Shown: positions 33,283 to 35,945 of the stretch, piece after piece
Layout of the letters: each line of letters opens with the position of its first letter
Position numbering within the stretch: position 1 is the stretch's first letter
DNA from: Nocardioides seonyuensis
Lineage (GTDB): Bacteria; Actinomycetota; Actinomycetes; Propionibacteriales; Nocardioidaceae
Assembly: GCF_004683965.1 (NCBI RefSeq)
Contig: NZ_CP038436.1
Span: 1,240,001 to 1,304,000 of the forward strand
Reading direction: 5' to 3'
Length of the DNA: 64,000 nucleotides
Position numbers and translations under genes: made by a program
The notes under the pieces: generated by a model
What the model was told of the DNA's origin: nothing
The model's database searches: none
The model's input: only the letters and a program-made list of their open reading frames with translations

Positions 33283-34080
33283 ATGTCCCGCCCCACCGCG
33301 GCGTTCTTCGATCTCGACAAGACGATCATCGCCAAGTCGAGCACGCTCGCCTTCTCCAAGCCGTTCCAGGCGGGAGGCCTGATCACGCGCGCCGCGATGC
33401 TCCGGGCGGCCTACGCGCAGTTCGTCTTCGCGGTCGGCGGCGCGGACCACGACCAGATGGAACGGATGCGGCAGTTCATGTCGCAGATGTGTGCCGGCTG
33501 GGACGTCGCGACCGTCCGCGAGATCGTCACCGACACCTTGCTCAACGTCGTCGAGCCGCTGGTCTACGCAGAGGCGGTCAACCTCATCGAGGAGCACCGT
33601 CTCGCCGGCCGCGAGATCGTGATCGTGAGTGCGAGCGGTGCCGAGGTCGTCGGCCCCATCGGGGAGATGCTTGGCGCGGACCACGTCATCGCGACGCGCA
33701 TGGAGATCGTCGACGGCCACTACACCGGCCAGATCGACTACTACGCCTATGCGGAGGAGAAGGCCCGCGCCATCGAGCAGCTCGCTCGAGAGCGCGGCTA
33801 CGACCTCGCCGACTGCTTCGCCTACAGCGACTCCATCACCGACGTCCACATGCTCGAGGTGGTCGGTCATCCCTTCGCGGTCAACCCAGACAAGGAGCTG
33901 CGCCGCATCGCCGCCGAGCGGGGTTGGTCGGTGCTGGGGTTCGTGCGGCCGGTCGCCCTGCGCACGAGGTTCCAGCTGCCCCCGGCCCGTCCAACCCTCG
34001 CTGCCCTGGCGGTCGGCGGCGCCGTCGCCGCGGGCGGTGTCCTGTGGGCGAACAGGCGCCGCAACCAGGCCGGGGTCTGA
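33283..34080 (+). CDS. HAD-IB family phosphatase (SerB-like), membrane-tethered
   Basis: This encodes 265 residues. HAD motif I FFDLDKT (8-14), motif II IVSASG, and the motif III region YSDSITDVHML are present; the cap is of the HAD-IB type with SerB-like AEEKARAIEQLA. It is a phosphomonoesterase of unknown substrate; in mycobacteria the equivalent is Rv3661. The C-terminus has a hydrophobic helix (LAALAVGGAVAAGGVLWAN) and basic tail, probably a tail anchor. The ATG at 33283 is used; upstream frame lacks conservation. It is divergent from cpaE and precedes the Ms1-type RNA. Confidence 0.92.
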   Translation: MSRPTAAFFDLDKTIIAKSSTLAFSKPFQAGGLITRAAMLRAAYAQFVFAVGGADHDQMERMRQFMSQMCAGWDVATVREIVTDTLLNVVEPLVYAEAVNLIEEHRLAGREIVIVSASGAEVVGPIGEMLGADHVIATRMEIVDGHYTGQIDYYAYAEEKARAIEQLARERGYDLADCFAYSDSITDVHMLEVVGHPFAVNPDKELRRIAAERGWSVLGFVRPVALRTRFQLPPARPTLAALAVGGAVAAGGVLWANRRRNQAGV

Positions 34081-34114
34081 CCGGACACCCAGCCAGCAGG
34101 GGGAAAGTCAACCC

Positions 34115-34143
34115 TTGAAGGTGCTGCGGGGCCGGGCTAGAAC
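34115..34143 (+). promoter_or_regulatory. Strong promoter of the Ms1-type RNA
   Basis: TTGAAG (34115-34120), 17 bases, then TAGAAC (34138-34143) form a strong sigma70-like promoter reading away from the HAD gene. Transcription would begin near 34150. Confidence 0.6.
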
Positions 34144-34149
34144 TGGTGT

Positions 34150-34325
34150 CAGAACTCCACAGTGCAGCACGTGAGCCGGGTACCCACGCGGCGATCCACC
34201 CATCCGATGGGGCGCTTGTCGTCGGGATCTGCCCGAGGCAGCAATTGAGAAGAGCACGCTTGGTAGCCCGCACGTCTCACGTGTTCGCGACGGCACCCGA
34301 TCCACGCGAGCGGGTGCCGTTCGCA
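34150..34325 (+). ncRNA. Structured RNA, candidate Ms1/MTS2823/scr3559 homologue
   Basis: No ORF is credible here. The interval has a strong promoter, a terminator-like hairpin and internal structure. An 8-bp closing stem pairs CACGTGAG (34168-34175) with CTCACGTG (34276-34283); inside lie hairpins CCCAT/ATGGG (34199-34211) and TCGGG/CCCGA (34222-34236); a 10-bp hairpin ends it (34290-34320). Known from other actinobacteria: MTS2823 lies between Rv3661 and Rv3662c and scr3559 at the equivalent Streptomyces locus; Ms1 binds core RNA polymerase in stationary phase. The gene order is the same here (HAD gene, RNA, Rv3662c-like gene on the opposite strand). Homology is inferred from position and promoter; the sequence was not compared. 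Confidence 0.6.
34290..34320. terminator. Bidirectional hairpin terminator
   Basis: ACGGCACCCG (34290-34299) and CGGGTGCCGT (34311-34320) form a perfect 10-bp stem with an 11-base loop. On the plus strand TCGCATGTC follows. It probably ends the structured RNA, and serves also the minus-strand gene whose stop is at 34328. Confidence 0.65.
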
Positions 34326-34327
34326 TG

Positions 34328-35047
34328 TCACGTGCGCAGCGGCGAGGCGTCCGCCCCGGCTGCGAAGGCCTCGGCCGCATAGAGCGCCCAGGCGTGCACG
34401 CCGCTCGGCCCGCCGTCGCGGTAGGCACGCAGGTTGGACTCGTACTCCTTCCGCAGGGCCAGGTGACCCGCCTCGGGAACCACGAGCGACTTGGCGTCGA
34501 CCCCCCGCGAGACCAGCACCAGCCGCTCCAGGGCGCGCGCGACGATGCCGTTGTGGGAGGCGAAGGGTGCCGCCGTCGCGACGTCGGCGTGCGCGACCGC
34601 CGCGACGAGCAGCGCCGGCGCCGACGTGTCGCTCAGCAACAGCTCGGACACCCCGCGCAGACGGTCCGCCGAAGCGGCGTCGCGTGGCCGCCCGAGCTCG
34701 TCAGGCGCGAGGGAGGACGAACCGACGACGGCGTGCAGCCGGGCGATCGCCTGCAGCGGGGCGGTCTTGAGCAGCGGCGCGAGGCCCAGCATCGAGGACG
34801 ACAGTCGCACCGCGTCGTTCGCGACCTGGTCGCCGGCACCGGCGCGGACCTCTTCCAGCGAGGAGGCCGATCCCTCGAGCACCGCTGAGGCGTGGGCGCC
34901 CAGCAGGAGCGACTCGGCGGTCGTCTCGGGTGTCGTACGACGAAGGCCGCGGTCGCGCAGCAGCACGTCGATGCCGTCACGGGTGGCGGCGTAGGCAGAC
35001 GGCACACCCTCGAGTTCGGCGAGCCAGGCCAGCGGGTCGGTGGTCAC
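34328..35047 (-). CDS. Degenerate Fic-like conserved protein (Rv3662c-like)
   Basis: This encodes 239 residues. The N-terminus resembles Fic proteins, with a SLLLGAHASAVLEG segment that recalls the (S/T)xxxE(G/N) inhibitory-helix or Fic_N region. The position of the catalytic HxFx(D/E)GNGRxxR motif reads APFASHNGIVARAL, lacking the catalytic His, the acidic residue and the GNGR loop, though the Asn and final Arg remain. It is therefore predicted to be an inactive Fic fold or a binding protein, though the homologue is often labelled oxidoreductase. GTG at 35047 is the start, divergent from the methyltransferase. The mycobacterial counterpart is Rv3662c by position. Confidence 0.7.
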   Translation of the reverse strand: MTTDPLAWLAELEGVPSAYAATRDGIDVLLRDRGLRRTTPETTAESLLLGAHASAVLEGSASSLEEVRAGAGDQVANDAVRLSSSMLGLAPLLKTAPLQAIARLHAVVGSSSLAPDELGRPRDAASADRLRGVSELLLSDTSAPALLVAAVAHADVATAAPFASHNGIVARALERLVLVSRGVDAKSLVVPEAGHLALRKEYESNLRAYRDGGPSGVHAWALYAAEAFAAGADASPLRT

Positions 35048-35075
35048 GGGAACAGACGCTAGTAGCCTCGGGGCG

Positions 35076-35945
35076 ATGAGCGACGAGCAGCCCACGACCG
35101 ACCCGAGCGCCCCGACGCAGGCGCAGGCCGAGGAGGCGCTGTCCTTCGGCTCGGTCGCGGACGCCTACGACCGCGGGCGCCCCGGGTATCCCGCCGAGGC
35201 TGTGTCGTGGCTGGTCGACGGCGAGGCGCTGACCGTGCTCGAGCTCGGCGCAGGCACCGGCAAGCTCACCGCCGAGCTCGTGGAGCAGGGGCACGCGGTC
35301 TACGCCACAGAGCCCGACGAGCGGATGCACGAGCTCCTCGTCGAGCGTGTCCCGGGCTGCAGCGCCAAGGTCGCCGGCGCCGAGGAGATCCCCGCCAACG
35401 ACCGCTCCGTCGACGTCGTGGTCGCCGCCCAGGCGTTCCACTGGTTCGACCACGAGCGCGCGCTCGCCGAGATGGCGCGCGTGCTCAAGCCCGGCGGCCA
35501 CGTGGCCTTGGCCTGGAACGTCTTCGACCGACGCATCCCGTGGGTGCGCAGGCTCGCCGACCTGATCGGCGAGCACGGTGACAGCTCGGCCTCGCACTCC
35601 GTGCTGGAGGAGAGCGACCTGTTCGACGAGGTCGAGCGCAAGGACTTCGCCCACTGGCAGGACGTCGACCGCGAGTCGCTGGTCGACATCGTCGCGTCGC
35701 GCTCCTACGTCGCGGTGCTCCCCGGCCATGAGCGTGAGGCCGTGCTTGACGCAGTGCGTGCGCTCTACGACGAGTACGGCCGCGGCCACGACGGCATGCA
35801 GCTGCCCTACCGGACGGAGTGCTTCCGGGCGAAGGTGGTCGACCCAGACGAGCCTGCACCCCGTGGCGAGGACGAGGCATCAGACGAGCAGAAGATCGTG
35901 AGCGACGGGACCGACACCCACATGTTGCTCATCGACTTCCGCTGA
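35076..35945 (+). CDS. Class I SAM-dependent methyltransferase
   Basis: This encodes 289 residues. The Methyltransf_11 domain has motif I VLELGAGTGKLTAEL (about 51-65), an acidic loop (ATEPDERM), and VVAAQAFHWFD in the substrate region (the AQAFHWF signature of the UbiE/COQ5-like and trans-aconitate-like group). The C-terminal tail is acidic. The substrate is unknown. The ATG at 35076 is chosen because the upstream frame overlaps the divergent promoter. It is divergent from the Fic-like gene and followed 21 bases later by a glycosyltransferase. Confidence 0.88.
   Translation: MSDEQPTTDPSAPTQAQAEEALSFGSVADAYDRGRPGYPAEAVSWLVDGEALTVLELGAGTGKLTAELVEQGHAVYATEPDERMHELLVERVPGCSAKVAGAEEIPANDRSVDVVVAAQAFHWFDHERALAEMARVLKPGGHVALAWNVFDRRIPWVRRLADLIGEHGDSSASHSVLEESDLFDEVERKDFAHWQDVDRESLVDIVASRSYVAVLPGHEREAVLDAVRALYDEYGRGHDGMQLPYRTECFRAKVVDPDEPAPRGEDEASDEQKIVSDGTDTHMLLIDFR

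Follow-up and report, generated by a model that had tools for sequence, protein, structure and literature searches.

Results

A putative RNA gene between two convergent genes

The window, by which we mean the whole 64,000-nt stretch of Nocardioides seonyuensis DNA that was analysed, harbors a conserved putative RNA gene with its promoter at 34115-34327, within a 247-nt gap separating a HAD-family phosphatase gene on the plus strand from an Rv3662c-like gene on the minus strand (Table 1). This location, between the HAD-hydrolase (Rv3661-like) and Rv3662c-like genes and on the same strand as the former, is that of the Ms1 class of small RNAs. An earlier note on this DNA, from which the name of the Rv3662c-like gene is taken, had described that gene as divergently placed; in fact, the coordinates and strands of the two genes show them to converge. 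The Rv3662c-like gene, whose start codon is uncertain, matched no Pfam family at E 0.001. Further upstream, on the minus strand between 30466 and 33182, lie frames resembling by eye a CpaF-type ATPase of Flp/Tad pili and a CpaE/Ssd-like protein.

Table 1 Features of the predicted RNA gene and of its two neighbours. Positions are those of the window; R1 and R2 are covariance models described in the text.
Feature	Position	Strand	Basis
HAD-family phosphatase gene, Rv3661 position	33283..34080	+	PF12710, E 2.5e-34
-35 element TTGAAG	34115..34120	+	TTG in 30/30 same-genus loci, no gap to -10
-10 element TAGAAC (wider form GTA[C/G]AAAGG)	34138..34143	+	TA.A in 30/30 same-genus loci
Ms1-type RNA, predicted transcript of about 178 nt	34150..34327	+	R1/R2 matches at 34149-34327; start rule
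Closing stem, 5′ arm	34167..34173 (34168-34175 in the 8-bp reading)	+	Two-sided changes in 7/7 consensus pairs
Conserved core, 5′ half (GTACCCACGCGGC)	34180..34192	+	ACCCACGCG conserved in 95% or more of 60 chosen loci at each column
Internal hairpin 1	34199..34212	+	96.5% of cells paired; two-sided changes in 2/3 pairs
Internal (apical) arm, hairpin 34223-34235	34214..34242	+	Two-sided changes in 9/9 pairs
Conserved core, 3′ half (GCACGCTTGGTAGCC)	34254..34268	+	Strong conservation in 60 chosen loci; pairs with 5′ half
Closing stem, 3′ arm	34278..34284 (34276-34283 in the 8-bp reading)	+	Two-sided changes in 7/7 consensus pairs
Terminal hairpin, probable terminator without U tract	34287..34324	+	Two-sided changes in 12/13 pairs
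Rv3662c-like gene, convergent, start codon uncertain	34328..35095	-	Homologue downstream, opposite sense, in 166/198 loci

Conservation and predicted fold of the RNA

The DNA of the gap matched 37 of 58 relative genomes, namely 35 of the 37 from the same genus (the genome under study included) and 2 of the 21 others. Thirty same-genus loci, delivered out of the 37 matching genomes, were the only source of a first covariance model, R1. A broader set of 60 loci was then picked from 100, comprising 13 of the 30 genus loci and 47 of the loci numbered L046-L100; left out were L052 and L056-L060, whose family was already represented, L064, and the weak L072.

Folding of 34150-34325 yielded a free energy of -80.6 kcal/mol (z = -3.04), which none of 200 shuffled sequences equaled, and the 8-bp closing stem, the two internal hairpins and the 10-bp terminal hairpin (34290-34299 with 34311-34320) listed in the earlier note were all found at the locus. 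RNAalifold predicted a consensus of 41 pairs on a MAFFT alignment of the 30 same-genus loci. In this alignment, which was made without regard to structure, 97.4% of cells were paired compared to 32-43% in slid comparisons, and 17 of the 41 pairs displayed two-sided changes. When the 60 chosen loci were fitted to R1, 94.2% of cells were paired compared to 30-46% upon sliding, two-sided changes affected 32 of the 41 pairs, and none of 500 shuffles reached any of five measures. Because the 60-locus alignment leans to the R1 model, the MAFFT alignment serves as an independent check on it. The strongest conservation among the 60 loci was seen in the core rather than in the terminal hairpin; since the pairs of the core hardly vary, most of the covariation resides in the other helices.

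Promoter and predicted transcript start

The proposed promoter, TTGAAG-N17-TAGAAC, is present at 34115-34143, and its spacer is free of gaps in the 30 same-genus loci while most spacer positions vary. Strict scans for a consensus sigma-70 promoter and for a U-tract terminator returned no match at the locus, owing to a -10 element devoid of its final T and to a terminal hairpin devoid of a T run; the case for this putative promoter is built on conservation, not on a match to the consensus. Beyond the genus, of 215 distinct loci (a set from which only identical stretches had been dropped), 130 carried a single copy of the motif TA[CG]AAANG ahead of the core and none carried it on the reverse complement; simple shuffling produced it in 53 of 4300 stretches. 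The strict motif was absent from the other 85 loci, that of the window included, the TAGAAC of which is a variant lying outside the strict form and was placed through the genus alignment.

A rule setting the transcript start 7 nt past the end of the -10 element fell exactly on the first base of the Rfam Ms1 family (RF02566) in all five loci recognized by that model. The rule was further tried on 34 of the 42 named Streptomyces loci among the matches listed, 30 of which had a single -10 match and gave predicted lengths of 223-230 nt with a median of 226 nt; Ms1 of S. coelicolor was mapped by RACE to 3,934,693-3,934,920, that is 228 nt (PMC9130861). Applied to the window, the rule predicts a start at 34150 and an RNA of about 178 nt, in good agreement with the approximately 175 bases first estimated. 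Nothing on an "Ms1 promoter" was found among the literature matches listed.

Two further elements were noted in the promoter regions. Immediately ahead of the -35 element, the block AAAGTCAACCC (34104-34114) shows good conservation across the genus, at 17-26 of 30 loci per column, and is perhaps an upstream promoter element or the site of a regulator. A TGTGA-N6-TCAC palindrome resembling a CRP site sits within the promoter spacer, always 112-115 bases ahead of the core, in 10 of 14 loci with an apical arm of at least 100 (L061-L065, L067, L235, L237, L242 and L244); upstream of the core it was found in 14 of 214 loci overall, and the promoter of the window is devoid of it.

Relationship to the Rfam Ms1 family

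RF02566 was run on 12 loci found by R1, seven of which came from the RF02566-positive family. It called Ms1 in five of the 12, with 229-289 bits and at the same place and on the same strand as R1, whose whole-genome E-values for these five loci ranged from 7.5e-6 to 4.3e-4. Two loci from other genera of that family (L061 and L065) were matched by R1 and not by RF02566. Comparison of the curated Rfam structure with R1 revealed the same pairing register for the strands ACCCACGCG and GCACGCUUGGUA and agreement of the helices around the core. As RF02566 was applied to loci that R1 had found, these results speak to the identity of the R1 matches and not to the completeness of R1.

At the locus itself RF02566 gave no match, and searches of its surroundings down to E 10 yielded only chance Rfam matches; the sole match at gathering level over the whole window was a tRNA. 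On the whole genome, the best RF02566 score was 9.9 bits, elsewhere than at the locus and far from the gathering cut-off of 162 bits, in a comparison where the 14 control genomes hold no positive. RF02566 was also run on 12 of at least 118 loci found with the sequence pattern described below, where three named Streptomyces loci (L128, L137 and L147), of the type whose S. coelicolor member has been demonstrated to bind core polymerase (PMC9130861), fell below its cut-off as well. The model is thus too narrow to refute membership, and its cut-off does not define the wider class. The lack of a covariance-model match, named in the earlier note as refuting its reading, does occur with the Rfam model; the genus-built R1 model matched loci that the Rfam model calls Ms1.

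The same scans showed 6C RNA (RF01066), encoded upstream on the other strand, in eight of the 12 R1-found loci and four of the 12 pattern loci (L061-L067, L070, L108, L128, L132 and L140), on the far side of the HAD gene wherever that gene was detected (it was not in L108); no 6C RNA was detected in the window.

Distribution of the RNA gene

Searched against 296 genomes of the class, R1 matched 113 at E ≤ 0.001, at a single place in each, and left 183 without a match; a few of the 113, including the genome of the window, had also given training loci. A second model, R2, built from 48 of the 60 loci, three of them from the mycobacterial-type (RF02566-positive) family, matched 160 of the 296, at one place each among the genomes listed, and left 136 unmatched. 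Among the genomes of this set that R2 matched in genus g13, which is RF02566-positive, no fewer than 12 had been missed by R1. Across the phylum, R2 matched 33 of 396 genomes, all 33 within the class; 12 genomes of the class were missed, and the other 351, apparently of other classes judging by the order of listing, were without a match.

In a named genome collection, at least 118 places carried the two-part pattern ACCCACGCG-N55..85-ACGCNTGGTANC, with a match to the HAD gene in 95 and to the Rv3662c-like gene in 103 of 118. Eighty of these loci were among the matches listed: 42 in Streptomyces, one in Paraburkholderia, and the rest in genera including Nocardioides, Pimelobacter, Kribbella, Aeromicrobium, Marmoricola, Nonomuraea, Streptosporangium, Actinomadura and Lentzea; the close named copies among them belonged to Nocardioides (e.g. 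L120, L125 and L174). R1 matched 78 of the 80, the exceptions being the Paraburkholderia and Saccharothrix loci. The former (L113), with neither flanking gene, was taken as a chance match and set aside. The latter (L132) carries the core pattern adjoining a HAD gene yet has no R1 match, a sign that some Pseudonocardiales forms diverge.

Gene order and inversion of the RNA gene

Gene order was compared in 198 loci located with a single regular expression, a few genomes being counted twice (L075 and L133 seem to come from the same contig). In 137 of them the HAD gene lay upstream on the RNA strand and the Rv3662c-like gene downstream, in their usual sense, which is the order seen in the window and, as the earlier note had recognized, in the Ms1 and scr3559 loci. 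One neighbour only was present in its usual sense in others (Rv3662c-like in 29, HAD in 16), and seven had neither. Odd arrangements consisted of an Rv3662c-like gene alone upstream in the same sense (3/198) or alone and turned (1/198). In the remaining five loci (L011, L107, L151, L178 and L182), the RNA was inverted relative to both flanking genes, which were still convergent. A promoter in the RNA's own sense was found in L011, L107, L151 and L178; the strict pattern was not found in L182. Thus, the RNA probably behaves as a unit of its own rather than as a trailing part of the HAD mRNA.

Two proposed architectures

By the distance separating the -10 element from the core, 33 loci formed a short group (35-46 nt) and 93 a long group (84-91 nt); four lay in between and 85 were devoid of the strict motif. 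The long group includes the Streptomyces and RF02566 loci; the short one comprises Nocardioides, Pimelobacter, Marmoricola, Aeromicrobium and Streptosporangiaceae, and the distance in the window is 38 nt. In six loci from the RF02566-positive family the two halves of the core are 140-141 apart, compared to 65 in the window. Added up, these differences of about 50 and about 76 nt make up the 126-nt excess of the RF02566 model (304 nt) over the predicted RNA.

Mycobacterial Ms1 (RF02566; MTS2823 in M. tuberculosis) resembles the RNA of the window in locus, direction, promoter form, predicted start position, closing stem, sequence and pairing of the core helix, and terminal hairpin. It differs in its length of 304 nt compared to about 178 nt, the window scoring below the Rfam cut-off, in a -10-to-core distance of 87-88 nt compared to 38 nt, and in an apical arm whose extra length falls in the part corresponding to 34214..34242. 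The 5′ hairpin domain, up to about position 65 of RF02566, is absent from the window, where the -10 element ends 23 nt before the closing stem. Streptomyces Ms1 (scr3559/Str13), as represented by the named loci listed, among which S. coelicolor itself does not figure, shares the locus, core motifs, promoter -10 element and terminal hairpin, and differs in its length of about 226-228 nt and its 84-91 nt from promoter to core.

Discussion

The agreement of R1 with RF02566 in five loci, the register of the helices, the gene order, the promoter and the predicted start all support an Ms1-type identity. From its sequence, the locus is very probably a stand-alone small-RNA gene encoding a compact Ms1 homologue, with binding to core RNA polymerase expected by homology.

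The alternative deserving most attention, if still an improbable one, is a 6S-type RNA binding the sigma-containing holoenzyme rather than the core polymerase. 6S RNA (RF00013) resembles Ms1 in forming a long interrupted hairpin that imitates an open promoter (PMC4191392, PMC9130861); the predicted RNA has such an open-promoter-like helix, and at about 178 nt is close to 6S in length. Moreover, scr3559 was reported to show a minor association with HrdB in stationary phase, of about 45-fold compared to about 1250-fold on RNA polymerase (PMC11077062). The two classes nonetheless differ in that 6S RNA binds the holoenzyme and Ms1 the core polymerase. RF00013 matched nowhere in the genome at E ≤ 10 (cut-off 46.4 bits), where control searches matched 8 of 14 genomes, four of them above the cut-off, and the homology that was found points to Ms1. 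CoRP RNA of Corynebacterium is, like Ms1, an abundant polymerase-associated actinobacterial RNA; it is set apart by its description, with about 500 nt and close homologues reported only in Corynebacterium (PMC11077062).

That the element is merely a 3′ UTR or a bidirectional terminator shared by two convergent genes, as its position and its strong final hairpin might suggest, is harder still to reconcile with the data, for it has a conserved promoter of its own, is inverted in five of 198 loci, four of them with an own-sense promoter, and is most conserved in its core. The absence of BLAST similarity between the Ms1 RNAs of M. smegmatis and S. coelicolor (PMC9130861) means that position alone could mislead, and an unrelated small RNA acting by base-pairing with mRNAs might occupy the same place; R1, however, searched genomes without regard to position, and five of the 12 matches scanned were RF02566 Ms1, leaving this explanation very little room. 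Least credible of all, and already contradicted, is conservation due to a small coding sequence. Open reading frames of 78, 60 and 106 amino acids, among others, do overlap the RNA, so that the statement that the gap holds no ORF was literally wrong; none of these frames is conserved. No frame across the RNA was open in more than 11 of the 30 same-genus loci, and 118 of 142 indel runs were not multiples of three.

The preferred reading, a compact Ms1 homologue, suggests how the RNA may act. In M. smegmatis, Ms1 binds core polymerase devoid of the primary sigma factor, and does so much more weakly without its internal bubble (PMC4191392); scr3559 likewise binds core polymerase in S. coelicolor (PMC9130861). 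The geometry of the conserved promoter places the predicted start near 34150, and the sequence predicts a closing stem, a core helix that is interrupted and made of two highly conserved strands, an apex of two hairpins and, at the end, a strong hairpin. By homology, the interrupted core may imitate a melted promoter and bind the polymerase core lacking the primary sigma factor, mostly in stationary phase, so that polymerase would be held in reserve for outgrowth. Given that the 5′ domain and the long apical arm are absent, the shared core and terminal hairpin are the likely binding unit.

Ms1 candidates were listed in 2022 in 824 species of 146 genera, including Nocardioides, Marmoricola and Pimelobacter (PMC9130861). 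Ms1 in Nocardioides is therefore already published at the level of candidates, to which the window would add a member, and this paper was the only relevant source found in searches on Nocardioides Ms1, small RNAs, start sites and RNA-seq. According to the same source, Rfam finds Ms1 only in close mycobacterial relatives, and the distant forms were linked mainly by gene neighbourhood and chains of BLAST matches. For the bridge in sequence and structure, the promoter rule and the two architectures, we found no counterpart in the cited papers, and we do not claim them to be unpublished.

A model derived from the Nocardioides clade bridges distant Ms1 RNAs through their sequence, their covarying structure and the promoter they share, and this bridge lets the start and the length of Ms1 be predicted. 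We tentatively propose, at somewhat less than even chances for the combined reading, that Ms1 exists in two natural architectures, that the RNA of the window is a near-minimal Ms1 to which the 5′ domain and long apical arm are add-ons, and that the gene can flip in place between its convergent neighbours. The compact form offers a small set of candidate parts gripping the core polymerase and, if the near-minimal reading is true, the core and terminal hairpin alone should capture it.
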